This document shows positions 3,501-62,200 of a stretch of 64,000 bases of DNA, in pieces. The notes below the pieces were generated by a model. That model ran no database searches. It saw only the letters and a list, made by a program, of their open reading frames with translations, and had not been told where the DNA came from. Source of the DNA: Pocillopora verrucosa (lineage: Eukaryota; Cnidaria; Anthozoa; Scleractinia; Pocilloporidae). Each line of letters opens with the position of its first letter. Position 1 is the first letter of the stretch. The stretch covers positions 25,843,325 to 25,907,324 of the forward strand of contig NC_089316.1 of NCBI RefSeq assembly GCF_036669915.1, given 5' to 3'. The position numbers and the translations under genes were made by a program.

Positions 3501-5640
3501 GAATGACACCCCTTTTGGTCTCTTTTCATTGTCGCTGAGAGTGATTTATCCGAAGGCCAAAACAGTTATTGCTGATATGTATCACGGTTCTTGTTGACTT
3601 ATAAATTTCCCATTTTCGTGCATTGTACCTCGTATTTCAGTTGTAACCATTGACTAACTAGTAACTAGAGGCAGTGGGTTCGAATCGCGTCCGAGCCTGA
3701 AAATTTCTTAAATAGTCTACGATAGTTTTTTATTGCAATTTTTTCCTGGGATTTCTCTTTATTTGATGTTCCTACCCTTTTCTTGTTTACTTTCAAACTT
3801 TTCAGATGTGGACGAGTGTACCGGCCACATCCATGGCTGTCACTATAATGCAAGTTGCAATAACACAGACGGCTCTTACACATGCAAATGCAAAACGGGA
3901 TTCAATTGCAGTAAGTATAAGAAATGTTGTGTGATTTTTTCTTTCTTTTTAATCGTTTTTTCAGACGTTTACCTGACAACGATTTGCGTGATCCCCTTGA
4001 AACGGTGCCAGAGATAAACTCTGATAAAATGTGCGTTTAAAATGAACACTTACTTCAATCATTGCAGTTCAGACAGATACTTTATCATTCGATGTAAATT
4101 GTGACAACGCGAAATACTTATCCTAAGTACTATGCAAGCACACCTTCCCTCTACCAAATGAACACTGAAACAACCTGAAATCTACGAAATCGAGTTCGTA
4201 CGGATTACATTTAATGGGCCTAGGATTCTAACGTGGTAATGACCAGGAACTAGATAAGACGAGTTTTTCACAAATTGCGCTGAAGTGGTTCACTTTTTGA
4301 TATGTTTACACAGGAAAGTCACCCAGAAAACCCAATAACGATCAGTGCTCAGAAATTATATTCGTCACGAGAAGACTCCTCCTCTGATAAATAACGTGTA
4401 TCCCACATTTTCCCCCAAATTGTCAAACTAATTTCAAATTTCTTTACCAGAGTAGGGAAACTTAAGATCTGAACTGCCCTTAACGGGCTTAATGTTACGT
4501 ATTTGTTCTCTCAGCTGTTTAAACTGATCAGACGACCAGCTGCCAGACTAAACATAAACATTCGTGATAAAGAAGAAATTACAACTTAATAAAAAAAATA
4601 GATGTCAATTTTACATTTTCCTCTCAGCATTCAAAGCCGTGTTCTCAAATCTCAATGCCACTGGAAGATATGGTCCAACATCGCTCGGAAGTTACTACGC
4701 AGGTAAGGATCATGACAGACAAGTTGCTTTGTCCAGCGGTATTCAACAGTGGACTGTGCCGCACACTGGTAATTACAGAATAGAAGCAATAGGGGCAGCT
4801 GGAGGGTACGATCTGCGGATTAACAGCTCTCAGTATCGCGGAAGAGGAGCAAGAATGATTGGAACATTCCGCTTAAACAAGGGTGAAGTCATCCAGATAC
4901 TTGTAGGTCAAGAAGGAGGAATAAACAAGAGGGCTTATTCTTCTGGAGGTGGTGGAGGTACATTTGTAGTGAGAGGAGCCGACACACCTCTGATAATAGC
5001 TGGAGGCGGAGGAGGGGTAGAATATGTATTTTCAAGACATACAGAATGTGATGCCAGCTCAAACACGAAAGGGAATCCTGGATACAGATCATGGCCAGGG
5101 GGGAGCAATGGACATGGTGCACAGACTGCTGACTCTGGATCATCATCAGGTAAGAATATTTTTCAATAATCTTTAGCATTTCAGCATTTTGGTAGTACTT
5201 TTAAAATTAAGTACAAAATGTTTATTCTGCCATAATCTCACGATATCTCCATTAAAAGTTTTCTAATTAATTAATATCATGATATTTCAGGTGGTGGTGG
5301 TGGCGGGTTTTACTCCAGTGGAAGAAGTGGAACGAATTTCAATGGGACCAAGGGATATGGTGGCGAGGGTGGTAAGGGATTTCTGCTGGGAGGGGTAGGT
5401 GGGAGATCAAGGTATTCCAAAGTCTATGGTGGGTTTGGCGGAGGAGGTGGAGCTGGGGGACGGGGAGAAGGAGGAGGAGGAGGAGGAGGAGGAGGAGGAT
5501 ACTCTGGGGGAGGTAGTGGAAATAATTTTCAAGATTTCTGTGGGGGTGGTGGTGGATCCTACAATGTTGGAAACAATCAGCAGAATGAATGTTGTTACAA
5601 TAAGGCTGGCCATGGTCAGGTGACCATCACACTACTGTAG
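592..5640 (+). CDS. Secreted PAN/apple - EGF - glycine-rich (ALK/LTK-type) domain protein
   Basis: Seven exons: 592-682, 2221-2492, 2591-2705, 2797-2919, 3806-3910, 4628-5149, 5291-5640, stop TAG at 5638; total 1578 nt, 525 residues, phases consistent. Exon 1 encodes a signal peptide ([20 protein letters not shown]). Exon 2 encodes a PAN/apple domain with paired Cys ([19 protein letters not shown]). Exons 3, 4 and 5 each encode one EGF-like domain; the last two begin DKNEC and DVDEC, the calcium-binding EGF form. Exons 6-7 encode a glycine-rich domain of the type in ALK/LTK receptors ([21 protein letters not shown], then long Gly runs and a Cys-containing end). There is no transmembrane segment or kinase after it, so it looks like an extracellular matrix or adhesion protein. 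The exon 3 donor (G-GTCTCA) is weak. Function is inferred from domains only. Confidence 0.8.
683..2220 (+). other. Intron 1 of the PAN/EGF/glycine-rich gene
   Basis: About 1.5 kb of AT-rich sequence between the signal-peptide exon and the PAN exon. It ends in a pyrimidine-rich acceptor (CTTCCTTCCAG). It has a short TG run near 1960 and T-rich runs near 2010-2060. No exon-like frame with recognisable motifs was found. Confidence 0.5.
3300..3400 (-). repeat. tRNA-like SINE fragment (intronic)
   Basis: Read on the minus strand this has an A-box-like part (TTAGATCAATTTGTAGAGCA) and a degenerate B-box-like part (GGTCGAGAGTTTACGCC), spaced as in a tRNA-derived SINE head. A second B-box-like string (GGGTTCGAATC) occurs at about 3676 on the plus strand. 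No intact tRNA fold was traced, so it is not a tRNA gene. Confidence 0.35.
5477..5501 (+). repeat. GGA triplet run coding for poly-glycine
   Basis: About eight consecutive GGA codons inside the last exon of the glycine-rich gene. Slippage here would change the number of glycines without shifting the frame. Confidence 0.8.
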
Positions 5641-9907: not shown

Positions 9908-11002
9908 TCACAGTTTAGTATCCCAGACATCAGAGTCAAAATCATCCGTGATCTCTTGTGGATTATCAATTCCCAAATCAAAATCGTCAGCTATGTGTCT
10001 ATCCCCGAACGTTTCAACAATTTTACCAGTTTTCGGACATATCTGTGAAATCTTTCGTAGAGCGATTGGACTTCTTGTAGAGTCTGGTGTCGCTGGAGCT
10101 CTCGGAGAAACCTCAATCGTTTCTTGCCATTTAAAAAAGAGAAGTTTGAGAGACCGACGGCATTGGCGAATGCGAAACGTGTAGGTAAATGGATTACAGG
10201 CGGCGTTGATATAGAGAAATGGTAACAAGATTCGCCGACACGAAACGAGCCATATCCCTTCACAATGAGTACAGTGTACCTCTACAAGAGTAATTATATA
10301 ATATGGCAAATGTGAAATAAAGAGGAAAAGAACTATAAGAATGGCTGTAAAAGCGAACTGTTTATCAATATCGAATCTTTTTTCGTTTGCTGAGACCGCA
10401 CTGTCGCTAGCGTCAGAGTTCATAGAGCACGCACGCCGTCTGTACCCACGTAAAACTTTTAGCAATAAGAAGTTAAAAATAATAACAGCCACGAGTGGGA
10501 AAGTCATATTCAAATGAACTTGTAACATGTCGTAAATTCCCTGTGGAATTCCAGTGAATCGAAGCAAACAGAAAGCCACGGAATATGCCACAACGCATAG
10601 TGCACATGCCAGGGTTTTTCTACCACTCGCCGTCGCACGGTAGTAAAACGGTAAGGCCACGGCGATCAAACGTTCCACGGACAAGCTCATGACAAGAAAC
10701 GTGCCGTTGTTGATAGCAAATAGACCGATGATACTTTCAAAACTCGTGCGGGTCGTCGTTTCATCCGCATGAATTTCACAAGATATTTCGTTACGAATGT
10801 GAAGACCGCTTATAACAGATCCAGTCAATAAGTCGTTTGCGGCCAGGGTAGCGATGAGAACTGAAATTGGTTTACGAAAGCAGCGTAAGGGATCCTTGTA
10901 CATGACGTAAAGTAGCATACCATTAGCAACCATGGCCAGTAAAGACAATATTCCAGCCAGTGTCGCCGAACAAACGCATATCGCATGCATGAAGCTCGTC
11001 AT
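9908..11002 (-). CDS. Class A (rhodopsin-like) G-protein-coupled receptor, intronless
   Basis: One exon, 364 residues from the ATG at 11002; an in-frame TAA lies just upstream, which fixes the start. Seven hydrophobic segments are visible. Landmarks: TM1 N27 in MVANGMLLYV; TM2 D57 in LAANDLLTG; TM3 end E110-R111-L112 in MSLSVERLIAVALPF, replacing D/ERY; TM6 P233 in FISHLPYY, without the usual CWxP; TM7 NPFTY at 270-274 in place of NPxxY. The C-tail (RQCRRSLKLL) contains a Cys that may be palmitoylated, followed by a Ser/Thr- and Asp-rich tail. The N-terminus is very short, so a small ligand is likely. It resembles the many single-exon cnidarian orphan receptors near the adenosine/melanocortin-type groups, but no ligand can be named. 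It would signal at the plasma membrane through G proteins. Confidence 0.85.
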   Translation of the reverse strand: MTSFMHAICVCSATLAGILSLLAMVANGMLLYVMYKDPLRCFRKPISVLIATLAANDLLTGSVISGLHIRNEISCEIHADETTTRTSFESIIGLFAINNGTFLVMSLSVERLIAVALPFYYRATASGRKTLACALCVVAYSVAFCLLRFTGIPQGIYDMLQVHLNMTFPLVAVIIFNFLLLKVLRGYRRRACSMNSDASDSAVSANEKRFDIDKQFAFTAILIVLFLFISHLPYYIITLVEVHCTHCEGIWLVSCRRILLPFLYINAACNPFTYTFRIRQCRRSLKLLFFKWQETIEVSPRAPATPDSTRSPIALRKISQICPKTGKIVETFGDRHIADDFDLGIDNPQEITDDFDSDVWDTKL

Positions 11003-12790
11003 TACCACTTACTAGGATGTCACCTTTTGTTCCCTGATCCAATTCGTGATCACTCAACATCGAAACCGGCCAAATATTTCGTCAATACGGCAAACATTTC
11101 GATTCCTGCCAAGCTCGAGTTAGAGTGACTGGCAACAATGCAATAAATCTTCCTGAATTTAAAATTTCAATTACAAATAATTGCTCAATATTCCTGGTTC
11201 CACGCTTCGTTGCCCGCCGTTTTGTTATTTTCCTAAAGATCGTTAAGGAAGCCTGTATGATAAGCTTCTAAACAAAGCTTCAACCGCTAATATTTCCAAC
11301 CGTTCATTATGGGGATTAATTTGGCCACAGTGCGAAATACAACATTAACAAAAGTTGCTTAGAAAACCAGGAAAAAAAAAACAATAACTGACGTGTCACC
11401 ACATTTAAGTCTAAAATTAATATCGTTTTGCTAAAGTGAATACATTAGCATGTAATTCTTCGATCGATCAACTCGAAGCTTCAACATCCCTCCGGTGCAT
11501 TTGAACCTTCAAAAATTCCCGTCCCCGGGAAAATATTATTGTGTTTAAATACCCTACTTAAGCAGTGTTTTGTAATTCACGATTCTTTGTGGGATCAACA
11601 AAATGTTGAAGAATTTAGGGTCATTTTGCAAAGTCACGCTTTAGTTTTTTTATGCCGTTGTTGGGTTTTTCGTTTGTAAGCATCATTCTACGATGCGGAA
11701 ATTTTCTTGTAAGCCATTTGCTCTAGGCGCATGTAATATAATCGACGGCAAAAACACACACACGTCACATCAAAGAAATGCTGAAAATTTTCTGTTCTTT
11801 TGCTACAATTGAGAGTTTGTTACGATGATTTACTTGCATTGGAGTCAATGATTTACATTAAAGAAATACAGGTGGGTAAACAAACAAAACTTATCTTCAT
11901 AAAAACAATCATACCAGCTCTGAATACGACTTCTTACTTGATTTAGTTTCGACAAAAGGTCTTTCGTGAATCATACTTAAATATTTGACAAAGACAAATT
12001 ACAGCATTTAAGTCGTTTTTCTGCACAATTCACGAAAGTGGAGATTACGAAGTTCAAAGTCTTCTGTTAAGATAAATGGTTCATCCATGGTACTGCAAGG
12101 GAACAGATCTAGTGGCAAGAACGATCCATGACGAGGACAAATGTTTACCACAATAGATCACGTATAATAACGCGAGATGTGACGCTGAAATCACAATCTC
12201 GAACCTAGTCCTCGAGAGAGGATATCTGACACAGCGGAAGGAACGATTTGCATGTTTTCTTCATAATAACCAATTTAAAAAGTGTAACACGATCATAAAC
12301 TACCAATTTTCTTCATTTAAATTTTAAACAAAACAATTATACCAGAGCTGCAAGTTTTGATAGACAAAACAATCACTGCAACATAAGCATTAGCCTGCAT
12401 CAGACCCGTAATATCAGTGCTGCAAGACGCAAGTTTCTCCGTCAACGGGAAGATTTGAGACGAGTCGGGGAGAGGTTTGCCGGGGAACTGACACTACTTA
12501 GTGCTAGACCCCTTGCGGTTCTTTCACGGGATGGCGTGGCTCAAGGTATCATACCTTCCCGCGGGCGAGGAAACATTTGTACAGTAACATTGAAAACGAG
12601 GTTCTCCACGCAGGCTGATGAGTATTGGATTCTAATCTGCTTTCTTTACTCTCTTTTTTGTTCCTTCCTTTATAGTCGAATTATTTGTAGACTTCTTCTC
12701 TCCGTCGCCTACAACAACAACAAAAACACAACACAGTTGAAGTAGCCGGATAGTGTATTGGTATAATAGTATAATAAAGTATGTAGTATA
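11003..12790. other. Intergenic; no gene seen
   Basis: AT-rich sequence upstream of the GPCR (minus strand) and downstream of AIG1 (minus strand). The stretch 12455-12600 resembles 49880-50025 and is listed separately as a repeat. A (CAA)n-like run is at 12710-12730. No splice-bounded exon was recognised. Confidence 0.45.
12455..12600 (+). repeat. Dispersed repeat shared with 49880-50025
   Basis: The two places share AGTCGGGGAGAG-TTTGC-GGGGAA and a later GCGGGCGA, and their translations share VGERFAG, RP and RGR. Neither frame is long or has a recognised domain. It may be a fragment of an older mobile element. Confidence 0.4.
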
Positions 12791-19130: not shown

Positions 19131-22100
19131 ATGCTGAGAATAGACTTCGGCCAAAGCTTATTAGACCATAGCGGGGTCTTAATACTTGTTCAACCTGTGG
19201 GATACATCGGTGATAAACGATTCAAAGCAATTTTCGACGAAATTTCCACGTATCGTACCGCACAGGTACCGAACACTATCAGGACACTAAACCTTCGGTA
19301 CTCGAAAAGGGTCAGTCCTCAATTCACCGAATGGGGAAATTTTCATTTTCACAAACGAGTCTTGGGGCTTATTTGTGTTGGATGGTGCACCGAGATTTCA
19401 GAGGTAGAAAAGCTTGAAAAAGCGATAAATGAAATTAAAAATCCTTTTAGTGCAATACTTTTGAACACAAGATGTTTCGTCTTTGGCTGCCAGTCCAACG
19501 ACGAATCAAAGATCAGGAAAGATTTCGCACTTATCAGAGGCGAAGATCATTCCGGAGACCTTCAAAGTAACCTCGCAGAATTTGTAGCTTCTTTGTTTAA
19601 CGTATTGGAATCGAAGAGGATCAGTAAACTGTCAGAGAAGATTGATAAAATAACCCTGATACAAGCACCGGTAGAGCATGAAGTTTTTGGAGGAGAGAAT
19701 GACAGCAGGTAAGAATGAATGGGTCTTAGAATTAAGAGGTCAATGGGGTAAAATTTCCGCACAGTCCCTTACTATTGTAAAACAAATCTGTTTTCCCAAT
19801 GGCAATGTATTGTTTTTGTCACTGTTTTCTCTGTCCAAGAACTGAATGCATAATGTAGTATGGGGCTGTGCAGAAATTTTACTGGTCAATGGGCCATTTC
19901 TTTCTTTATTATGTCTCTTAGTAAGCACTTATCTGTGTCATGATTGGTAAATTTAGCAGGCTGTATTTCACTGTATTGCGTAATTCCAAAGTTTGTTTAA
20001 ACTGGATGCTTCCTCCTGTAGTTGAACTCAGAGAGGTAATAAATGTATCACTGACCTTGTTTTTTCGGTCTGCTCTGTACGGTCGGATTTCTGGGAGCCC
20101 TTGGTACAGACCTTGAACTTAAGTACATGTAGTTAGGGGTGTTTATACTCCATGGCTCTTTAATGGTTGAAGTTCTGACTAAGTGGCTGACAGCTTTCCA
20201 AGGTTGATTCATGCTGATTGAAAGAAACAGCATAATAACAACCTACAAATGAACCTACTCACTGTTCATCCAGTATATCTGCAGCCACAGTAATGATCTC
20301 ATAACTTGGTGCTCATCAAGTACTTTTCAACGGATGAGTCAACTGGATAGCCTTCTGCCTGTCTGTTTGTCTCTCTGGCTGTCTGTCTGCTTGTATGCCT
20401 ATCTATCCATTGGTCTGTTTGTCTCTCTCCCCATCTGTTCATCCTTTGGTCCATTCATCTATCTTTCTGTTTACCTGTCAATCTGTGTATTATCTGCTTG
20501 ATCCATTGGATGTCTAATTCATTTACTTGAAGTATTGACTGATTGACTGACTGAATGACTGACTGACAGATTGACTGACTATTGCTGACTAAATGACTGA
20601 CTGAATGACTGACTGAGTGAATGAATGATTGACTGACTGACAAAATGACCAACTGCCTGACTGACTGAAAAACTGAATAACCAACTGTCTGGCAGTGTGC
20701 GACTGATTGAATTTCTGTCAAGCTAACTGACTGACAGACTGACTGACTGACTGCACTGGCATTGTACACAGTAAGTGTATGACTCAGTGATTGCTTAATC
20801 TATGTATTGATTGATCAATGATTGATAAATTTATTGACTTACACTGTAACAAGCAACCAATTGACTGTTTGTTCAGTACTTAGTATATGTAGTTTCTTGT
20901 CAAAAAGGGCATACTTTGTAAACATTTAGCAACGTTATTTGAATTAATCTTTCAGGACAAGCAAAAGAAAAACTATTGGAAGGTCCAAAAAATACACTGG
21001 AGATTTGTGTATGTTGGCTGGTTTGCCACAAGAAGCTCTCTCTCAATACCTTATTGCTGGAGAACATTTAAGAGTCGTCAATGATCTTCTATGGCTTGCT
21101 GGTGCATTGGAGGGACAATGTGCAGCATCACTACTACTGACCAGAACTGCTACAGAAAAGGACAGGAATTCATTGATTTTACCAATTGAATGTGCAGCGA
21201 ATTCCATGAATTTAACAATGAATGGTTTAGGAGGTGATGTAGATGAATCAAAATTTAGGAATCCACAAGCACTCAGTGAAGACGAGATTGTAGAAAGGCT
21301 CTCAGAAGCACTGAGACTCTATAACAGAGTAAGTATTCATACTCTCCATACTGTTCTCTGTATATTTACTAAGGTGCTGACAAGGAGAATTTGTCTTACA
21401 ATCAAGGTTTCTCAAGTTGATGATCATTTCCTCTATTCTCATGACATTAACATGGGATTCAGTGGTGATATTGCAAGGAGAAACTAGATGCTTGTCATTC
21501 TTAGGGGTTAAGGGCTAAGAAATGAATAAAAGGGGTAATTTTCAAAAAAAAAAATGGCAAGTCAGTTAGGGGTATTATAGAAGCATCAAAGTGAAGGACT
21601 AATGCTCAAAATATTAGCTTAAAAAACTCTTTCTGTTGATCAATTTACATTTTCATTCAGTTGATAAAAGCAAATTATTCAGACAGTACAAGTTACAACT
21701 CATCTGAGTTACTTTCTGCATGGGATACTTAATGTATGTGGTACTCAAATGTTCAGTGCAAAGGACCCTGGGTAAACCCTTTGACCTCTAAGAGTGATTA
21801 GTAACTATTTTCTCCTATCAGTATCACCTCTAAAACAAACATTAAGGTCATGAGAATAAAGGAAATGATCACCAACCTGAGAAGCTTTGATTGTTAAACA
21901 AATTCTCTTTGTTAGTACCATAGGAAATGTATAGAGAACAGTAGGGAGAAATTGTATACTGATGTTGGGGTGTAAAGGGTTCAGAGATTGCATTTTGAGA
22001 CCAAGTCATTGTGTTGTGTTCTTGGGCCAAAAGCTTCACTTTCACAGTGCCTCTCTCTATCCAGGAGTATTCATGTGAGTGGGTTTTGGCAAACTTTAGA

Positions 22101-38540: not shown

Positions 38541-38669
38541 TGTTTTGGTCGGTAGAGTGATTTCATTCCAAAAAAATGACAGGATGGGGACCATAGCGGC
38601 TTCAGTGGAACGAGTTACGTTTATTTCGGATTAACTAAGGCATAAAGACACGGCCAAAGAATTTCCAGA

Positions 38670-39692
38670 ATGGGTGAACACGTTGTAGGAAGCTGTGAAA
38701 ACATGGATGTGCTGTTTTACGAGCAGAGCGCATTACCAGTGAACAGTTTTTCGCGTTATGACAAGAACGCGCTGCGGTTGAATCTCGAAGGTCATCATCC
38801 GTCAGTCGTACAGGAATACAGAGGGAACGGAAAGTTAGGAATTTACGAGAATTCGCCTGAATTATCTTTGTTCAAAATGGTTTCTCCTGAGCTGGAAAAG
38901 TTTATTGCTAGCAATACGGGGCTAACACCTAAAGGAAACCCTGGAGGAATTAATTCACCAGAATTTACTTTATTTAATCTGATTTCACCAGAGTTTGAAA
39001 AAATTCTCGCCAGTGTTCAGAATCAGAAATCGCCAACGCATATTAAAGGTGCGCGAGAAGGGAACCACAGCGTTAAGCAACAGCACGAAGCTTATGTCCA
39101 AGGATTTGCCGAGGCTCTACAACAAATCCATGATCGACAGCAACAACCGGTCGAACATCTCAACAAGCAAAATACAATACCCGTTAGTTCAGGTACCAAT
39201 AACACTTGGGCAGAACCTGAAAACACAGTTAACAACTTCCACACGCAAATAGCCGTTAATGAGACATCGTATGATATCAGAAATCCCCCTTACGCCGGGG
39301 TGACAACTTATGAACATCATGAACTAAACCCGACGGCTTTTACGGCCCCGGTTGTGGCAGAAACAGAAAATTTTGAATACGCTGAGGACTCTTTGAAACC
39401 GCAACCAGGGAATGTACTTCCTCTACCGCCCATAGATTTAGAACTTCAAGAAATTGTAAAACGCGAACGAAAGAAACAGAAAAATAGAGTGGCAGCGTCA
39501 AAATGTAGAAAAAAGAAACTTGAAAGAGAAGCACAGCTTGAAGTTCGAGTACAGCAATTGAAAGATAAAAATATTGAACTTAACGCCGTGGCGAACGCGT
39601 TACGCCAGCAAGTAAGTGAACTGAAGCAACGAGTTTTAGAACATGTAGCGTTCGGATGTCAGCTTCCTTCCATAGCGTCAGCTTCTTTCTAG
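38670..39692 (+). CDS. JUN: Jun-family bZIP transcription factor, intronless
   Basis: Single exon, ATG at 38670, 340 residues (human c-Jun 331). C-terminal bZIP: basic region 264-284 with NRVAASKCRKK (272-282, redox Cys279), leucine heptads at 290, 297, 304, 311 and 318, and the Jun-type end LEHVAFGCQL. N-terminal half: DVLFYEQSALP (14-24) and LRLNLEG (35-41) match the delta/transactivation region. JNK-type Ser-Pro sites S62 and S72 sit in NSPELSLFKMVSPELEKFIA, at the places of human S63 and S73. The module recurs as NSPEFTLFNLISPEFEKILA with S96 and S106. A Gln/His-rich linker follows (around 127-160). It would bind TGAC-type sites as a homodimer or with Fos/ATF. Lack of introns matches JUN genes in other animals. 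Confidence 0.95.
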   Translation: MGEHVVGSCENMDVLFYEQSALPVNSFSRYDKNALRLNLEGHHPSVVQEYRGNGKLGIYENSPELSLFKMVSPELEKFIASNTGLTPKGNPGGINSPEFTLFNLISPEFEKILASVQNQKSPTHIKGAREGNHSVKQQHEAYVQGFAEALQQIHDRQQQPVEHLNKQNTIPVSSGTNNTWAEPENTVNNFHTQIAVNETSYDIRNPPYAGVTTYEHHELNPTAFTAPVVAETENFEYAEDSLKPQPGNVLPLPPIDLELQEIVKRERKKQKNRVAASKCRKKKLEREAQLEVRVQQLKDKNIELNAVANALRQQVSELKQRVLEHVAFGCQLPSIASASF

Positions 39693-43380: not shown

Positions 43381-43732
43381 TGAATTAATGATCACGTGTG
43401 CATGCAACGGGAGAATTGAAAACACGATCGTAATAATTTAAATCAAGGATAGATTTTGAGTTTTGACGACACTTTGCTCACATTCTCACATTTTTATACA
43501 TAAAGTTAATTTCCTACGTTCAGTTTTCGCATCCTAATTTACTGTAGTTCCCTATTGTTGGTATACTTTATAGATCAAACGGTTTAATTGCAGATTTTAT
43601 TGTCACTGGCTTTCGATTAAGCCCTACCTACAAAAGCTTGAAAAACTGCTAAAAGAACTGAAAATGTCTTCGCAAAGTAATACCAGTGTTCATTGAAAGA
43701 TAATGTACAGGAAGAAGAATCTTTGTGTAGGA

Positions 43733-46035
43733 TCAATGGTCACTCTGTTTCTTCTCCGCCTCGTTGTTGTCCTCCTCGAGTTCTTCTTTCCTACAACATA
43801 CATTATACATTTGTCAATATTTTAACTTTAAAGTAAACGGAACAGATTTCCAATAAATGAACTATTTTTTTCTTCAATGCCACTGGCTATGATTATCCAA
43901 ACTTGTCGAACATACTTAATTTAATGTTATTTTCACTATTTTTTTCAGATAAAATGATTTTTTTAGTTTCTCAAGTTACCTTCATCGTCATAGCGTCCAG
44001 CATCGTATCGACCTTATGTAATTATTTCTGAGTATTCGATACGAAAGAAACGCCAATTCAAGCCAATCTTAGAAAGCGTTCGGTAAAAATCTTCTGGCTC
44101 CGAGCACTAGATCTCTTTCTTGGCATTTTATGGATGAAAGACAAAGACAAAAACAAACAAACAAAAATTACTAAAGTTTGAGTAACTAAACAAGTTAAAT
44201 GTGTTGATCGGTTTCTCCTACAAAATTGCTCACTATAATCAGACTTACCCTTTTTCCATAAAATCAAATGTCACGTTATCCCCTATCAGCACAAACGGAG
44301 CCCATTGGGAAAGTTTGGGGAAACCATTGCTTCTCAACCATTGAATGGCCTGGTGAAGAGATTCACTCGCACTTTCTCCACGAACAAGGTGTTTATAGAA
44401 ATGTTTCATAAGGTTCGCCGTTGCTTCGTCTTCTACAGCCCACGATGCTACCAACACTGAACGTGCACCGGATGCTAAGAATGCTCGAGCGATTCCAATA
44501 ACTCCTTCCTTTTTAATCAATCCACGCCCACTGTGACAACAGCTGAGTACTACCAGTTTAGCTCGCACTTGAACACCGTCAATGTCGGACATTGTCAGGA
44601 GGTAGTCTTCCTCTTGTGGAATACCGTTAGCAGTACATAGAGGAGAGAGGGCAATCTCTCCTCTTTCGGCATTTCCATGTGCGGCAAGATGTATGAGACT
44701 CGCTCAGGGTACTGCTTCAAGAACCGCCGGCTTTGTTGCGCGACTTCCTAACAAAGGCTGAACGCCCAGCAGTTGACCAACCATCTCTGCTTCCTTCCTT
44801 GCATAGAACAATGAAGTAATGTCAATGAGACGTCCATTGTAATGCACTTTGCCAACCGTGGGATCACCCACAACTAGTAAACCGGTTTGACTGTGATAGT
44901 CTGCTGGACATTCTTGAATGAGCCGGAGAGTCGTCAATGAAGGAACGATGCGTATTCTGTACTTCTCTGATAAATACTTTCCGGCTGGTCATCACGCAAG
45001 GCAGCAAATGGGACTCGGTACGAGAAACGGTCCGGTACAATGATGATTTCGGGCTCTGTAAGTAAATCGGCCACAGGTGCGATGATCCATTGGTAGCACA
45101 AATGATGACTTCTTCCGGTATCTTTGGTTTCGTCACCTCGCAATTTTGCTTGGCTCTCTTCATGAAGAGATGTCGTTTCGTTGTCATCCAGCGATCGGTC
45201 TTCGCAGTTCGCTGTGGGTAAAACACCAAAGCAGGCGGCGCTCTTTTTGAAAACTCCTTCCACTTCGCAAACTTGCTCAGCAATAAGAGTCTCTAGTTTC
45301 ACTTCGTCTGTTACTCGAAAGCAAATGTCTCCATTTGCTTTCAATACCCAGAGAAGAACTTGCCGATCTATGTACGAAATGTACAAAAAAACAGAGTTAC
45401 TTTCTCTTTTCGCGATGTTTTCAATTCCGGACCATGACTGTGGATCAGCTTAGATGTGGCTTTCCACGGAGTACTTGTCTGCCATGAATTCCGAGAGGAC
45501 ACTTGCTCGTCCCAGCTCCTCAACATAGAGAGCATCTCGAAACTTTCCATTACAGCAAAGCAAGTCAGTGAGTAACTTGTAAGGAAAAGTACCGCGTTTC
45601 TCTAACAAAGAGATTTGAAATCCACTGTTTCCTTTCAGATGAGTTCTGATTTGTTCATATTTTCTAATACATTGAAGAAGATATTTCATTGCCTCCACAG
45701 CCTCCGACTGCGATATCTTTAACGTTGTAAGCCTGAGAAGGCTCTGAAACTCAGTCATTTTGTCTCCAATTTGGCTGCTTATGAAGCAAGCTTTCTGTAA
45801 ATAATCTGCTGCCTTGCCACATTCACCAAATGATTGGAATAGTTCTCCAAGGCTAAGGTAAAGTCGTGCTTCGAACTCTCTATTGCCACATTCTCTGTTG
45901 ATTGTAAGCGCCTTCTCACAATGTTCTTTTGCCTTCTGACTGTCATTCACAGCCAATCGACCAATCGAGCAAGCGAGTACCATTCTCCACAACATATCTA
46001 CAACTTGCTCTTGTGCATGCGCGCAATTCACTAGT
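43733..46035 (-). pseudogene. Truncated, disrupted TPR-CHAT gene
   Basis: Homologous to 55540-59284. Lost: everything N-terminal of the last about one and a half TPRs; some 1.5 kb (matching 57800-59330) is replaced by about 80 unrelated bases at 45953-46035. Breaks in the rest: a TAA stop after DKYSVESHI where copy B has Ser; a one-base deletion just after VPFAALRD (about 44990); a TGA stop after VLEAVP (about 44704) where copy B has Ser. Retained: KAKEHCEKAL TPR remnant, IHLAAHGN and VVLSCCHSGRG CHAT motifs, the donor at 44249 and the 58-nt terminal exon 43733-43790. No product with a continuous CHAT domain can be read. A short TPR-remnant peptide of up to 193 codons (45450-46031) is open, but I see no reason to think it functional. 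Confidence 0.85.
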
Positions 46036-47938
46036 TAAAAGGAAGCTTAGAAAAAGTAACACTAACAAATGTTCGAGTTTCTGAGCTGTTTTTAAAGAAT
46101 TTGTGGTTGTCTTCCTTTTCACAAATGTCTGAGCGCAACATTCCTTTTTCATTCTTTTTTTTCAAACCTCAAGTGTATCATCTTGGTTCAAATTTCAGTA
46201 ATCGTAGAGCAGATTTGGATAAAGCTATCAAAAAAAGTTTCACCAGTAGAACAGCGGTTAATTGATCAATTGCGTCGAGTTTGCATTCTTGTAAAAGGGT
46301 TTACACGTGACGCGTGAATGAGGCTAAAACTGATACGTGAAACGTGAATTTTAATGAAAGGCGAGCGTGATTCGTGAATTTATGAACCAAAGTGGGACGT
46401 GATTTGCCTCCTGATATATACGTGACCCATCAATTTCTTCTTTCATTTCGTGAAAACATCAAGATTTCCCAGAAACATAAGAACAGAGACTTAAAGGTTT
46501 CCCTTTTCTAAACGTGAAGTGGGAATTTTTCCATAACATTCGTGCGCAAAACACGATCAGGGTCTCCACTTTGCCGCTGGACAAATTTGACGGACATAAA
46601 TCCAACAAAAAAATTATTTGCATTCTACCATTAAACAAAGTGTAAAACTATTCAATTATGCCCAGATGAAGATATTTGTTTCAGATTTGTATTGGTATTT
46701 CTAACCGTTTGCCCCCATAGAGATCAAGCCGGCATGTCAGTCTTAGAAACTCGCTTAATTAATTTGAGATTAAGAAATTAGCACATGTAAGTGTTGTCAA
46801 TGATTAATCACCCATCAGTTATTTTAAAAATTAAAAAACACACTACTTAATTTTAATACAGCATAAATTTGGGCAAAGAGCAAAGATTCTATCCAGCGTT
46901 TTAACCTATTACATAATATTTTTTGTTTGTTTTTTCAGACGAAGAAAAATCTTCCTATTTCATTCAATTACATTCGTGTTACTTCAGTAGCTCATGTACC
47001 AACTTCTCCAAATTTTCATTGCATTAAATAATGTCAAACAATTCAAAACATGTTAACACATACTGCTTTTGAAATGAAAAGATCTTTGGATAGTTAGGAG
47101 ACCAAAATGGCGAAACTTATTAAATTTTTTTCTGCAAATCAATGAAGAATGCAAAGAGTTAGTATTAGATTGAATAGGAACATTATCGGTTAAAAGTAAT
47201 CATTGTAAACCTAATAAGGATGAAACTTGCATTAAACCTTGTCCACAGGATATCTTAATAAATATTTGAGCTCACATATCATTGATAAAAGTTTGGTGGT
47301 TTTAATTTCTCTTTGCCCAATTTTTTAAAACCTTCAGGTTACAGAAGTGACAAACATGTTGCTTCTCTTTTGAATATCAACACATTATTCAGTAAACAAG
47401 CGGCGAGAATGCTTATCAGCTGAGGGTTTCTGTTTACACAACATTAAATTCTCGCTACTGACTAACAAAGTAATGTGAGGGAGCTAGACGGAAGAATTGC
47501 TGATGAGATCATAAATTCAAAAGATTAAGATGATGCAGACCTTAAATATTTTGCAATCAAATCAAAACTTGATTCGACTTTGGAAGGTCTCCACAAATAT
47601 TATCAGGTGGTTCGGAATGACAACTCTTTTATCTCTGAATTTGCTCAATTTTAGCCAGAAATGTATTTTTTTAAGGCGGGAAAAGAATAACTATTATTAA
47701 ATTTAGTTTTTTAGCTGGTAACCTTTTCAAAAATAAACACGCTTTGTTTGGGGGATGAGACCGAAAGTGGCGAAAAACAAAGATAAATGCAAGCAGCACG
47801 TGTGAGAACAAAGTGCTAAGTTTGATCGGTCTAAGACAAGAGATTATAAACTGCAGTTGATAATCTCTTGGTGTGAGATATATCTATACTTGACTTTCTG
47901 TTTCGCCCACAGCATCGCTGAAAAATATTGTAGCCCTT

Positions 47939-54574: not shown

Positions 54575-55093
54575 TTCTGGCTGATTGTCACGTTCATATC
54601 CTACAAACTGTTTGCACTCTTCTGTTTGGCGTTAGTATCTCGCGCAATGTTTTCTCCTAATTTTATCTCAATAATTCGCTCACCGTTTCTCTTCTTCTCT
54701 ATTTGTTAATACGTTTTTTTAGTATATTGTACTCTGTTTGTTCCCTTCCCCATTTAACTTTTACGTTATTATGTAACGCCCTGTTCCCAACACTGTTTGA
54801 TTTTTGCGTTAATTCTCAACCATTGTTCTCTTCTCTGTCTGATTTTTACGTAATTATCTTGTCTTTTCTATTTGATTGTTCAGTATCTTGGCACTTTTTG
54901 TTCCCTCTTCTGTTAGTTTATCAGTTATGTTATCATCTCCTGCACCTGAGAACAGTTATTATCACTCTTAAATGATCACGCGTACATTCAACGGGAGAAT
55001 TGAAAACAGGATCGTTGTTAATGATTTAAATCAAGGATTAGTTTTGAGTTTTGACGACACTTGCTAACATTCTCACATTTTATACATTCAGCT

Positions 55094-55445
55094 AATTTCC
55101 TGCGTTCAGTTTTCGCATCTCAATATATTGTAGTTCCCTGTTGAAAGTTTTCTTAATAGATCAAACGGCTTAATTGCAGGTTTCATTGTCGCTGGCTTTT
55201 GATTAAGCCCTGCCTACAAAAGCACGCAAAATCTACTACTTGACTAAAAAAAAATCAAAATTTTTACGCAAAGTAATAATTTCCCGCGTTCAGTTTTCGC
55301 ATCTCAATATATTGTAGTTCCCTATTGAAAGTTTTCTTCATAGATCAAACGGCTTAATTGCAGGTTTCATTGTCGCTGGCTTTTGATTAAGCCCTGCCTA
55401 CAAAAGCGCGCAAAATCTACTACTTGACTTGAAAAAAAAACCTAA
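55094..55445. repeat. 184-bp tandem duplication downstream of the TPR-CHAT gene
   Basis: AATTTCCTGCGTTCAGTTTT recurs 184 bases later as AATTTCCCGCGTTCAGTTTT, and the following 150 bases match closely. Block A has one copy (about 43510-43680). Confidence 0.85.
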
Positions 55446-55539
55446 AAACTTAAAACTTAAAAAACTAAAAATGTCTACGCAAAGTAATACCAGTGTCCAT
55501 TGAAAGACAATGTACAGGAAGAAGAATCTTTATGCAGGA

Positions 55540-58500
55540 TCAATGGTCACTCTGTTTCTTCTCCGCCTCGTTGTTGTCCTCCTCGAGTTCTTCTTTCCTA
55601 AAAAAAAGATAAATTTGTCAATATTTTCAACAATGAAACGGATTTCCAATAAAAGAAATTACTTTCATCCTCAAAGTCGTTGGCTCTGATTATTCAAACT
55701 TGTCGAACATACCATGCTTGATACGAAAGTGACTTTAAGGTCGTCAATTAATTGTTATTTTTGTTGATTTTTTACAGATAAAGCGAACTTTTTCAGCTTC
55801 TTAGGTTACCTCCCTCGTCATAGCGTCCAGCATTGTCTTGACCTTGATTAATTATTTCTGATTATATTGAATACAGAAGAATAGCTAATTCAAGCCAATT
55901 TTAGAAAGCCTTCCGTGAAAATCTTCTAGCTCCGAGAACTAGTTAAAATCAACTTCTCTTTTTTGGCATTTTATGGATGAAAAACAAAGACTAAAAGAAA
56001 ACGAAAAACAAAAGAACACAAGTTGATAAAGTGAACAAGTCAAGTGTACTAATCGGTTTATCGTACAAAATTGCTCATTATGATCAGACTTACCCTTTTG
56101 CAATAAAATCAATTGTCACGTTATCCCCCATCAGCACGAACGAGGCCCATTGGCGAGGTTTGGGGAAGCCATTACTTCTCAACCATTGAACAGCCTGGTG
56201 AAGAGATTCACTGGCACTTTCTCCACGAACAAGGTGTTTATAGAAATGTTTCATGAGCCTCTCCGTTGCTTTGTCTTCTACAGCCCACGATGCTACCAAC
56301 ACTGAACGTGCACCGGATGCTAAGAATGCTCGAGCGATTCCAATAACTCCTTCCTTTTTAATCAATCCACGCCCACTGTGACAACAGCTAAGTACTACCA
56401 GTTTAGCTCGCACTTGAACTCCTTCAATGTCGGGCATTGTCAGGAGGTAGTCTTCCTCTTTTGGAATACTGTTAACAGTACGTTGAGGAGAGAGGGCAAT
56501 CTCTCCTCTCTCGGGATTTCCATGTGCGGCAAGATGTATGAGACTCACTGAAGTTATTGCTTCAAGAACCGCCTGCTTTGTTGCGCGACTTCCTAACAAA
56601 GGTCGAACGCCCAGCAGTTCACCCACCAACTCTGCTTCCTTACTTGCACAGAACAATGGTATAATGTCTTTGGGACATCCATTGTAATGCACTGTGCCAA
56701 CCGTAGGATCACCCACAACCAGCGCACCGGTTTGACTGTGATAGTCTGTTGGACATTCCTGAATGAGTCGGAGAGTCGTCAATGAAGGAACGATGCGTAT
56801 TCTGTACTTCTCCGATAAATATCTTCCGGCTGGTTCATCACGTAAGGCAGCAAATGGGACTCGGTGCGCGAAACGATCCGGTACAATGATGATTTCGGGC
56901 TCTGTAAGTAAATCTGCCACAGGTGCAACGATCCATTCGTAGCACAAATGATGACTTCTTCCGATATCTTTGGTTTTGTCACCTCGCAAATTTGCTTGGC
57001 TCTCTTCATGAAGAGATGTCGTCACGTTGTCATCCAGCGATCGGTCTTCGCAGTTCGCTGTGGGTAAAACACCAAAGCAGGCGGCGCTCTTTTTGAAAAC
57101 TCCTTCCACTTCGCAAACTTGCTCAGCAATAAGAGTCTCTAGTTTCACTTCGTCTGTTTTTCGAAAGCAAACGTCTCCATTTGCTTTCAATACCCAGAGA
57201 AGAACTTGCCTATCTGTATACGAAATGTACAAAAAAACAGAGTTACTTTCTCTTTTCACGATGTTTTCAATTCCGAACCATGATTGTGGATCGGCTGAGA
57301 TATGGCTTTCCACGGAGTACTTGTCTGCCATGAATTCTGAGAGGACTCTTGCTCGTCCCAGCTCCTCAACATAGAGAGCATCTCCAAACTTTCCAGTACC
57401 ACAAAGGAAGTCAGTGAGTAACTTGTAGGGAAAAGTACCGTGTTCCTCTAACAGAGAGATTTGAAATCCACTGTTTCCCCTCAGGAGAATTCTGATTTGT
57501 TCATATTTTCCAATACATCGAAGAAGATATTCCATTGCCTCCACACCCTCTGACTGCGATATCTTTAACTCTGTAATTCCGAGAAGGCTAAGAAACTCAT
57601 TCATTTTGTCTCCAATTTGGCAGCTTATGGAACAAGCTTTCTGTAAATAATCTGCTGCCTTACCATATTCACCAAGTGATTGAAATACAAATCCAAGGCT
57701 TTGGTACAGTTCTGTTACGACATTTCTATCGCCACATTCTCTGCTGATGGTAAGCGCCTTCTCACAATGTTCTTTTGCTTTCTGACTGTCATTCACAGAA
57801 GCAAAGACACGTGCCAAACCTACAGTAGCTATGGCTTCAAGTTCTCTGTCACTACGTGTAATACCGACGCCGACCGCTTTCTCTAAATGTTCTTTAGCTT
57901 GCAGATTTCTATTAAGCTTCCTGTAAAGATATCCAAGAGTCGAGTATGCGAAGCCTTCTCCATAACTGTCGCCAGTTTCTATTGCGATGGCAAGTGCTTT
58001 TTCGAAATATTCTTTAGCCTTCTGATATTCGCCAACGGAATAAAACACACATCCGAGGTGCCTGTATGCTGTTCCTTCTCCACCTCTGTCGCCCATTTCT
58101 ATTGCGATGGCTAGTGCTTTCTCTTGATATTCTTTAGCCTTCTGATATTCGCCAAGGGAATCAAACACACATCCGAGGCTCAGGTATGACATTTCCTCTC
58201 CACATCTGTCGCCAATTTCTATTGCGATGGCAAGTGCTTTCTCGTGATATTCTTTAGCCTTCTGATATTCGCCAAGGGAATAAAACACACGTCCGAGGTT
58301 GTCGTATGATGATTTTTCTTCATTTCTGTTGCCAATTTCTATTGCGATGGCGAGTGCTTTCTCGTGATATTCTTTAGCCTTCTGATATTCGCCAAGGGAA
58401 TGAAACACATTTCCGAGGCTCCCGTATGTTATTCCTTCTCCATATCTGTCGCCAATTTCTATAAAGATGGCAAGTGCTTTCTCTTGATATTCTTTAGCCT

Positions 58501-59284
58501 TCTCATATTCGCCAAGAGAATGAAACACACTTCCGAGGTTCCCGTATGCTGCTCCTTCTCCATTTCTGTCGCCAATTTCTATTGCGATGGCAAGTGCTTT
58601 CTCGTAATAGTCTTTAGCCTTCTGATATTCGCTAAGGGAACTAAACACACATCCGAGGTTCAGGCGTGTTTTTCCTTCTACATATCTGTCGCCATATTCC
58701 ACTGCGATGGCAAGTGCTTTATCGAGATATTCTTTAGCCTTCTGATATTCGCTAAGGAGAACAAACAAAGCTCCGAAATTCCCGTATGTTCTTCCTTCTC
58801 CATTTCTGTCGCCAATTTCTATTGCAATGGCAAGTGCTTTCTCGTGATATTCTTTAGCCTTCTGATACTCACTGAGTTCAGCACAGACACATCCAAGTCC
58901 AAGATGAACCACTACTTCTTCTCTTTTGTGACCAATTGTTTTCCAGATGTTGAGTGCGCCTTTATAGAGTTGCTTTGCCTCTGGAAACCGGCTTTGTGCT
59001 ACATATTTTTCTCCCAGTTTTGTAGTTAGTATCCCAGCATGAATAAATGTGCCAAGAATTTTGTTTGTATGTCTTTCCGCATCTGTGTACCCAGAGATCG
59101 CGTAGTACGCATTGAATAGCACATCGGAGATATCAAGGTGACTACCAGAGTACAGGTTTTGAAGTAGAATTACACATTCATTACATAACTCAGTCGCTTG
59201 TAGGCCACGATCAGTGTTCAGAAGAAATATGACGACATTTAAACCTATCTGGACTGATTTTAGGATTTCTGCAGCGTCACTCAT
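55540..59284 (-). CDS. TPR repeat - CHAT (caspase-like) domain protein
   Basis: Coding exons 59284-56094 and 55597-55540; 3249 nt, 1082 residues. ATG at 59284 (MSDAAEILKSVQIGLN) is the best start; the frame runs 23 codons further upstream without an ATG. Residues about 80-600 form 11-12 TPRs of 40 residues (type YxNLGxVFxSLGEYQKAKEY then HEKALAIAIEIGDRNGEG). The C-terminal third is a CHAT domain: VVGDPTVG, LLGSRATKQAVLEA, His921 in LIHLAAHGNPE and Cys968 in LVVLSCCHSGRG, the expected His/Cys dyad, then ARAFLASGARSVLVASW. The donor GG-GTAAGT at 56093 joins an exon coding an acidic/lysine tail (KEELEEDNNEAEKKQSDH). The family (often labelled TTC28-like in corals) is predicted to be a cysteine protease regulated through its TPRs; substrate unknown. 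The same gene in block A is broken. Confidence 0.88.
57790..58880 (-). repeat. 120-bp coding tandem repeat (TPR array)
   Basis: About nine 120-base units with near-identical words such as GCAAGTGCTTTCTCGTGATA and TTCTTTAGCCTTCTGATATT every 120 bases. The DNA similarity is higher than protein conservation alone needs, which suggests recent amplification or conversion. Confidence 0.9.
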
Positions 59285-62200
59285 AACGGCTCTCTCCTGT
59301 TTGTTGTCGTATGAAAGAATCAACAAAAAAAGGAAGCTTAGAAAAAGTAACACTGAAAAATGTTCGAGTTTCTAAGCTGTTTTTAAGGAATTTGTGATTG
59401 TCTTCCTTTTTCACAAATGTCTAAGTGCAACATTCCTTTTTCATTCTTTTTTCAAACCAGTCACAAGTGTATCTTCTGGGTTCAAATTACAATAATCGTA
59501 GAGCAGATTTGGATATAGCTATCAAAGAAGTTTCACCAGTGGAATAGCGGTTAATTTACCAATCGAGTTATATTTGCATTCCCGTGAAAGTGTTTACACG
59601 TGACGCGTGAAGGAGGCTAAAATTAATATGTGGAGCGTGAATTTTACAGAAAGGCGAGCGTGATTCGTAAATTTATGAAGCAATGTTGGGCGTGATTTGC
59701 CTCCTGATATATGCGTGACCCGTCAATTTCTTCTTTCATTTCGTGAAAACATCAGGATTTCCCAGAAAGCTTGTACATAAAAAGAGACATTTGAAGGTTT
59801 CCCTTTCCTAAACGTGACGCGGGAACTTTTTATGAGAGATGTCCATCTACAATCGGAGATATAGATGTCCATCTAGGACATGTCCATCTGCAATTGCTCT
59901 GACGAAGGGCTAACGCTCGAAACGTCAGCCTTTTTACTCTTTACGGTGGCCAATTTACGTTTTAACTCAGTTGTTAACACCTAATTACCTGCTATAGATC
60001 TAGTTTCGTTGCGTGGTGGACAAATTTGATGGACATAAAACCAACAAAAAAAAATTACATTCTACCATTAAACAAAGTATGCAACTATTGTCCAATAGAG
60101 ATCAAGCCGGTATGTCAGTCTTAGAAACTCGCCTCATTAATTTGAGATGAAGAAATTAAAACATGTAAGTGTTATCAATGATTAATCACCCATCAATTAC
60201 TTTGAAAAAAACAATTTTTTGATTTTGATACAGCATTAATTTGTTTTTCAGACGAAGGAAAATCTTTCTATTTCATTCGTGTTACTTCAGTAGCTCATGT
60301 ACCAACTCCTCTCAATTTTTTGTTTCGTAAAATAATAGCGGAGCTCGCAGAGCGTAGCCCCATAATTATACAAAATAGTAGTAACCCATCAAGCCGAAGA
60401 AATTTGGTTGTACGACCGTACGACCGTAAGACCGTATAAGGTGCTACTTTTAACATGCGTGGTCAACTGTACTGCGGGCACGCCAACGCCACGGCTTTGT
60501 CCAGTAGTCCAGTGGTCAGTGCACTAGGCTCCGAGTCAGAAGACCCGGGTTCTACTCCTGGCCAGGGAAATGCGTTGTGCCCTTGAGACGTGCGCGAAAA
60601 AAAATGCGAGCTCCGCTTTTAGGCTTGGCTAAGTCTGTGTATTAAAGTTATTCATGGAAATTGAAACTAAGGAAGCCTTAGGTGAAGGAAAATTTGTTTC
60701 TTAAGTTTCCCAGAAGATTCATCAAATAACACACGGGAGCTTCCTAGTTTTAATCATCACACAAGTGATGAACACGTAGTTTCTCCTTACAATATCAATA
60801 CACCATACAGCAATGGTGAGAGTAAACAGACTCATCATTCAGAGTAACAAGTTTCAATCCAAAACATGTTAATGCATAATTTTTTTGAAATGAATTTTCA
60901 GCCGCTCACCTTTGAAAACGAAAACTTCCCTGAATAGTTAGAAGACCAAAATCGCGAAACTGATTCGAACTTTCTCTGCAAATCAAGGAAGAATGCAAAA
61001 CAGCTAGTATTAGATTGAATAGGAAAATTATTGCTGAAAAGTAATCATTGTAAACCTAATAAGGATGGAACTTACATTACAGCTTGCCTATAAGATATCT
61101 CAAAAAATATTTGAGCTCACATATCATTGATAAGAGTTTGGTGGTTTTAATTTCTCTTTCCTCGATTTTTAAAACGGCTTCAAGTTATAGAAGTGACGAT
61201 CATGTTGCATCTCTTTCCAATATCAACATATTATTCAGTAAACAAGCGGCGAGAAAACTTATCAGCTGAGGGTTTTTTCTTAATACAACATTAACGTCTC
61301 CCTACTGACTAACAAGGTAATGTGAGGGAGTTCTAAGGAAGAATTGCTGATGAGATCATAAATTCAAAAGGTTAACTTAACCTTTTGAATTTATGATCTC
61401 ATCAGCAATTCTTCCTGATGATGCAAACCTCAAATACTTTGCAATCAAATCAAAACTTGATTCGACTTTGGAAGTCGAAAAACCCAGTGTTAAAGATTGA
61501 GTTCGATTTGTATAGATTAGAAGAACAAAAGCTTTTTAGGAACCTGAAAATCAATCGCTCATTCATCTTCTCCATAAATTAAGCGCTCAGGGTTCAAACA
61601 GACTATATTTCCCCGGCTTGAATTAATTTGAAATTTAGCATAATGCGTGATTTGTAATTACTCTGCGTTACAACTGACACTGTGACAAAACATTAAGCTT
61701 CTAAGGAAGGGCCCAGGAAACAACCATTAGACGATCCGGGACAAACGGAGTAGGATTTTATGACAAGAGGATTCTCTGCTCATGTGACTGAGCATTTTCA
61801 GGTGAAAAATCAAAACAATTCAATTTCGAATGGCCTTATTTTACCCAAATTTTGTACATTGGAAACGCTAACAACGGTTACCATCTTTCTAAATTCTGAA
61901 AACTTTTTTTGCGCTAAGAATAAATTGACCCCCGCCGCGTAAAAACGCAAAGTGAACATCGTGTTCATGCCATCTCATGACGTTTTGGGCACAGATCGGG
62001 CATGTCTGTTTCATTAAAATTAAAAAACAAGCATTTTTGATTGTTATCCAACTTCTGGATAGGTATAAAAGAAATGAACTAGATCCAACACGTCAGATGT
62101 AGTACTGATGTTAATGCGTCAGTATTTTTATGCAGGGAATTCGAAGAAAATTTTGAAAAAAAAGGGAATCTATTAACGCTTTCCCAGCAAAACAGAGATG

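Follow-up and report, generated by a model that had tools for sequence, protein, structure and literature searches.

A TPR-CHAT gene of Pocillopora verrucosa with a conserved predicted protease dyad and fast-evolving repeat positions: a candidate coral receptor-protease

A 64,000-nucleotide stretch of the Pocillopora verrucosa genome (RefSeq assembly GCF_036669915.1, contig NC_089316.1, forward-strand positions 25,843,325 to 25,907,324; hereafter the window, whose own numbering is used below) carries a minus-strand gene for a protein with an array of tetratricopeptide repeats (TPRs) followed by a CHAT domain. From its sequence and predicted structure, the gene appears to belong to the coral TTC28-like multigene family, and we lean towards reading its product as a receptor-protease. 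Comparison of genomic copies within one subfamily places the CHAT domain under purifying selection and finds that ligand-contact positions of the TPRs outpace synonymous sites. Selection seems to drive fast evolution of the binding face with the protease unchanged, a pattern that a recognition receptor should show. A role in immunity or cell death, suggested by a first-pass annotation of the same DNA, is one we infer; recognition has an evolutionary argument in this split of selection. Lacking antibodies, corals have to distinguish between symbionts, pathogens, and neighbours; should recognition take place at the TPR face with CHAT as the output, the family would be a directly testable repertoire.

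Gene model, domains, and genomic family

The gene comprises a main coding exon (56094..59284, minus strand), a terminal intron bounded by gt...ag (55598..56093), and a short terminal coding exon (55540..55597). The main exon lies in a single minus-strand open reading frame, 59371..56093, in which 59284 is the first ATG, giving a product of 1064 residues. Splicing the exon end at 56094 (before gtaagt) to 55597 (after ag) stays in frame and extends the protein to 1082 residues; the 18 residues added form a charged tail, the C terminus reads KEELEEDNNEAEKKQSDH, and the stop ends at 55540. The 5' end is uncertain. Since an acceptor-like CAG directly precedes the ATG at 59284 and the close copy L132 has no ATG at this position, an additional upstream coding exon is possible.

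The TPR array runs from residue 78 to about 597 (57494..59053, minus strand) as roughly 12 units of 40 residues in a single register, with helices predicted by AlphaFold2. Eight near-identical units occupy residues 118-437, and at the DNA level a tandem array of 120-base units (7.6 copies) spans 57954-58867. The Pfam family TPR_12 matches the 1064-residue protein with an E value of 1e-80. Beyond a linker, residues 782-1054 (56123..56941, minus strand) score 182.4 bits with the CHAT profile PF12770, whose cut-off is 24 (E 1.7e-53; profile positions 8-289 of 289). These Pfam scores put both the TPR and the CHAT assignment beyond doubt. The predicted catalytic histidine, H921 (codon 56522..56524), lies within HLAAHG, and the predicted catalytic cysteine, C968 (codon 56381..56383), within LSCCHSG. 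The classical caspase family Peptidase_C14 is absent from the 22 Pfam families listed at E ≤ 0.001. Among NCBIfam models, one TPR model (NF053720) exceeds its cut-off and the other 21 fall below theirs; the four PADLOC matches, including one with the label oxidoreductase, all fall within the TPR region.

Predicted models match the solved structures of Csx29, a bacterial TPR-CHAT protein, and separase, pointing to a caspase/separase fold. Sequence and prediction together give a superhelical TPR array, a helical linker, and a CHAT domain of this fold with a conserved His-Cys dyad. The first-pass annotation had described a CHAT domain with the full dyad, at these two residues, behind 11-12 TPRs, and had named a PF12770 search and a comparison of predicted structures as checks; the unit count, the profile match, and the predicted fold all bear out its description.

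A search of the 353-Mb assembly with PF12770 found at least 135 matches among 503 candidates; each match exceeds the cut-off and is free of internal stops. Together with the 276 and 304 TPR-CHAT genes reported for two Acropora and the 362 for Pocillopora effusa (PMC12314368), these matches agree with the earlier claim that cnidarian copies are numerous. The window CHAT domain, at 182 bits, scores below all 135 matches listed and is absent from that list. When the C-terminal 504 residues (P0002) served as query, 86 matches were listed (589 candidates, 85 scored). Of these, 45, counting the window gene, reach at least 77% identity across almost the entire query and are spread over nine contigs; a further match, in two pieces on contig C7, has 82-83% identity, and the other listed matches have 54-68%.

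Both dyad residues are kept in all 30 close copies placed in a codon alignment (in L125 also by tblastn). Eight high-scoring copies (L093-L100), none among the P0002 matches listed, contain both dyad motifs as well, so that the dyad is retained in 38/38 copies examined. In-frame stops occur in four of the 30 close copies in the codon alignment; the genome search flags five of the same 30. A long N-terminal TPR array with a single C-terminal CHAT domain, in many copies clustered in the genome, is what characterizes the family, and all of these features are found here. That this particular copy is silent or non-functional despite its open frame strikes us as improbable: its 5' end is uncertain and its CHAT score is low among its relatives, but the full frame, the dyad, and the terminal exon are all intact.

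Substitution at ligand-contact positions and in the CHAT domain

Repeat positions 2, 5, 9, 12, and 13 were chosen prior to comparison with a published survey of TPRs (PMC1261162). In that survey the most variable, concave positions are 2, 5, 9, 12, 13, 33, and 34, and HOP makes its contacts through 2, 5, 6, 9, 12, and 13. In the window gene alone, amino-acid variability falls on the five chosen positions (permutation p 1e-5) and ranks 3 of 2002 within helix A. A conservative count of 25 nonsynonymous (N) to four synonymous (S) changes is not significant (p 0.10), and the genomic copies were therefore analysed.

Of 29 copies whose open frames were searched for repeat units, two yielded none, leaving 27 copies and 320 units, of which 315 are unique in DNA and 314 in protein; long arrays are seen in part because the loci span only 1500 bases upstream of the match. 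Across the 315 units, entropy is 2.37 bits at the five positions and 1.13 elsewhere (permutation p 0.001), a contrast that does not amount to proof, since TPRs in general vary at these sites (PMC1261162). Each unit was then paired once with its nearest unused neighbour, giving 151 pairs. At the five positions pN is 0.153 and pS 0.045, a pN/pS of 3.41 with a bootstrap interval of 2.5-5.1 that is too narrow because units share ancestry and can exchange DNA. The other 35 positions give a pN of 0.055, a pS of 0.064, and a ratio of 0.85. Removal of L106, L108, and L109 (36 units) leaves 279 units and 133 pairs with a ratio of 2.98 (2.2-4.5); the list of copies to drop also named L120, L125, and L130, which had given no units, and L126, flagged with one TGA, was kept. 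L135 and L136 form no part of the analysis. When the five-position pattern is slid round the 40 positions, the true register tops both pN and the ratio among the 40, in both sets of units. Allowing units to be reused (270 nearest-neighbour pairs) gives 2.75 (2.1-3.7). Relaxed constraint would not readily produce a ratio well above 1.

The remainder of the protein was compared in 13 matched gene pairs (26 copies, the four with stops removed). Here pN/pS is 0.71 for residues 561-660, 0.52 for residues 661-781, and 0.33 for the CHAT domain. A neutral birth-and-death family, in which copies and repeats multiply by unequal exchange or duplication with no recognition function, would account for the clustered copies, the stops in four of 30, and a dead copy near the window gene (described below). 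We regard it as the least plausible of the alternatives, since a CHAT ratio of 0.33 alongside about 3 at five TPR positions would be hard to obtain in this way.

Besides the non-significant count in the window gene alone, several observations weigh against recognition as the function of the array. The ratio drops to 1.30 when units of the main subfamily are paired at random. Positions 33 and 34, ligand-facing in the published survey (PMC1261162), are slow here, and positions -2, -1, 3, 6, and 24 are also fast. Other subfamilies give a pN/pS of 1.31 (0.85-2.47) from only 34 units (seven of eight copies, 15 pairs); the pN peak again falls in the true register in this set. The putative human homologue, TTC28 or TPRBK, is linked to cytokinesis rather than recognition (PMC12314368, PMC9145168). 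This last point fits an expanded TTC28-type scaffold whose TPR binding would serve the cytoskeleton or cell division, with a CHAT domain that is structural or performs housekeeping cleavage, and the TPR array is 32% identical to the TPRs of LGN over about 350 columns. Hundreds of candidate copies with fast ligand-contact positions are unlike a housekeeping protein, however, and the dyad is kept throughout the copies examined; we consider the scaffold unlikely.

Gasdermin bears on the same question. In an arrangement like the fungal TPR-CHAT and gasdermin pair (reviewed in PMC12881547), recognition would lead to gasdermin cleavage and lytic death, with the coral protein as the activating protease. 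An exon-by-exon search of the genome found a single gasdermin match, confined to one exon (C13:8196890-8197075, E 3.7e-9). The nearest CHAT among the matches listed, at C13:8405830, is about 0.2 Mb away and not adjacent; gasdermin as a gene neighbour was accordingly rejected, and both findings count against this version and also against the receptor-protease reading. We give a dedicated gasdermin-activating protease little credence. Gasdermin as a target is possible, without support from gene order; non-linkage is compatible with action in trans.

In the receptor-protease reading, which we prefer, the TPR array would bind a variable ligand, whether microbial, symbiont, stress-derived, or allogeneic. 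Binding may move the linker and open the catalytic pocket, by analogy with the effect of non-self RNA in Craspase. The CHAT domain would then cleave a conserved substrate of the host, or a few such substrates, and so could start a defence, death, or tolerance response. Many copies together might form a germline repertoire of receptor-proteases. More tentatively, such a repertoire could be large, with near-identical 40-residue repeats multiplying, ligand-facing residues driven to diversify, and one protease output kept. If so, corals would possess a recognition system whose logic resembles that of NLR repertoires, directed at microbes or symbionts or serving allorecognition.

Terminal exon, broken paralog, and window context

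A broken paralog lies at 43733..46034 (minus strand), 12 kb from the gene, within a segmental duplication. It has lost residues 1 to about 495 and has kept the CHAT domain and terminal exon; in-frame stops fall at codons matching 663 and 912, with one frameshift at 817. The duplication includes upstream and downstream DNA and covers at least 43416-47155 and 55000-60999, the query having ended at 55000 and 61000. The dN/dS of the gene against this dead copy, 0.60, was set aside because it mixes selected and neutral time.

The terminal exon is identical to that of the paralog at 58/58 bases, and the intron at 360/447 aligned bases (80.5%). At the rate of the intron, a 58/58 match would have a probability of 3e-6; at a coding rate of 92%, the probability rises to 0.008. 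We surveyed the exon in the 30 close copies L102-L131, the window's own included; 29 were examined, L125 having no motif match. An exon with at most six mismatches, directly after AG and with its stop in the same place, is present in 24/29 (23/28 without the window's own). The remaining five differ: L108 lacks the AG and carries 12 mismatches, 24 are counted in each of L129 and L130, and no terminal exon appears in the examined stretch of L106 or L131. L106 does have a 90% exon match beyond that stretch, at C12:5149354-5149496. In the genome, a query of 141 bases around the exon gave 40 scored matches from 54 candidates.

Mean pairwise identity across L102-L128 is 91.6% for the exon (a mean that includes copies without the exon in the examined stretch), 88.0% for the intron, and 93.0% for 504 coding codons; the contrast between exon and intron is thus weaker across these copies than in the paralog pair. 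Some copies are altered where the main exon ends (L106 and L109, for instance, carry a stop at codon 1061), and the charged tail is therefore not universal. The separate, conserved terminal exon with a charged tail that the first-pass annotation had proposed is nevertheless well upheld by the paralog and by most other copies. We speculate that the tail may bind a partner or control localization.

Ten copies with 80-81% identity form a cluster on one strand of C5 (8888922-9029111), which holds L129, L130, and L131, the first two with a diverged terminal exon. Just downstream of the window gene, a 184-base tandem repeat (1.9 copies, 96% alike) spans 55093-55440. A plus-strand open frame of 238 residues at 58313-59026, antisense to the TPR array, is most likely a by-product of the repeats. 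A Pfam scan of 10 open frames in the window gave matches in four: a rhodopsin-family G-protein-coupled receptor in a single open frame (9911-11008, minus strand) and, on the plus strand, an ALK/LTK-type glycine-rich domain (4558-5166), a TRAPPC9/Trs120 exon (20948-21484), and a Jun/bZIP transcription factor in one open frame (38646-39689).

Relatives and known systems

Outside its own genome, in collections searched without eukaryotes, the nearest sequence relatives found are cyanobacterial TPR-CHAT proteins. A tblastn search of plasmids returned 182 records, the best from Nostoc sp. HK-01 (BBD63358.1; 30.8% identity, E 8e-57), whose match spans 99% of P0002. No relative was found among 50,697 phage records. 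Among 580 candidate stretches in genome contigs, at least 561 code for a relative. The analysis retained 80 loci, 60 with cyanobacterial titles; identity to the cyanobacterial proteins is 33% over residues 16-494. Viral contigs gave no relatives from five pattern matches with P0002 and two from 29 with the alignment A1.

A1 has eleven rows, ten of them picked from 40 listed plasmid matches; of the 82 loci found in genome and viral contigs, 51 entered A2 and 56 entered A3, and the two viral-contig relatives served only as rows of A3. Both dyad residues are invariant in A1, and the histidine is invariant in A2 and A3 too. In the latter two, only the histidine is independent evidence because the search pattern contains the cysteine. 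The cyanobacterial proteins are co-linear with the coral protein over the last TPRs, the linker, and the CHAT domain and have the same dyad. The coral protein differs in a CYEW insert just before CHAT, found in no A1 row with residues there, and in its separately spliced tail.

Comparison with structures in the Protein Data Bank (PDB) reaches further. By phmmer the best match is DdvA (8rot_B, E 2e-5), and no Craspase chain appears at E ≤ 1. The A3 profile matches 8rot (1e-14), the Craspase TPR-CHAT chain 8d9f (1.4e-8), and Csx29 7y9x (0.0017). DdvA contains a CHAT domain; unlike the coral protein, it is titled a transmembrane anti-sigma factor. The Craspase TPR-CHAT protein (Csx29) has the same fold and dyad as the coral protein, judging from the predicted model and the profile alignment, and Craspase is activated by an RNA-guided complex that is not known from animals. 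In the 8d9f alignment, positions 539 and 581 lie opposite H921 and C968; with an offset of 46 to 7x8a/7y83 (count and offset worked out by hand), these are H585 and C627. Both are named as catalytic, C627 mutants lost activity, and, when non-self RNA shifts the linker, the distance within the dyad shortens from about 7 to 3 Å (PMC9729208).

The kinship with bacterial TPR-CHAT proteins and separase that the first-pass annotation had drawn thus stands at the level of structure and needs refinement at the level of sequence, where the nearest proteins are cyanobacterial and Craspase is reached by profile only, not by phmmer. Separase, usually a single-copy cell-cycle protease, has a protease-domain fold in common with the predicted coral model, at 11-18% identity in structural alignments. 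On the receptor-protease reading, separase, Craspase, and the animal TPR-CHAT proteins would be linked as one design of this kind.

Because the coral TPR-CHAT expansion is published (PMC12314368, PMC9145168, PMC6208414), the gene belongs to an already known kind. Beside the coral counts given above, there are 15 such genes in Nematostella and one or two in the majority of non-anthozoan animals, and the coral family is diverse in TPR length (PMC12314368). A TTC28-like expansion is described in Montipora (PMC9145168), and TPR plus CHAT is listed among coral-diversified genes with possible roles in apoptosis or bleaching (PMC6208414). A hint from expression is in print in the form of 56 differentially expressed TTC28-like genes (PMC10668361), and TTC28 is tabled under establishment of symbiosis in a section on loci under selection (PMC10363134). 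In the main text of PMC12314368, the words protease and catalytic are not found, the Ka/Ks passage concerns other gene families, and the first part of section 15 mentions neither a terminal exon nor site-level selection. The literature searched, with bioRxiv and most subscription papers outside its scope, yielded no site-level selection on coral TPR-CHAT arrays.

The window gene thus appears to be an ordinary member of an extraordinary known family, with a functional hint sharper than we found in print. It has the N-terminal TPR array and single C-terminal CHAT domain of the published coral and metazoan TTC28-like proteins, which likewise number hundreds of copies in tandem clusters; beyond what the passages compared here describe, the present analysis adds, for one subfamily, the terminal exon and the site-level selection.
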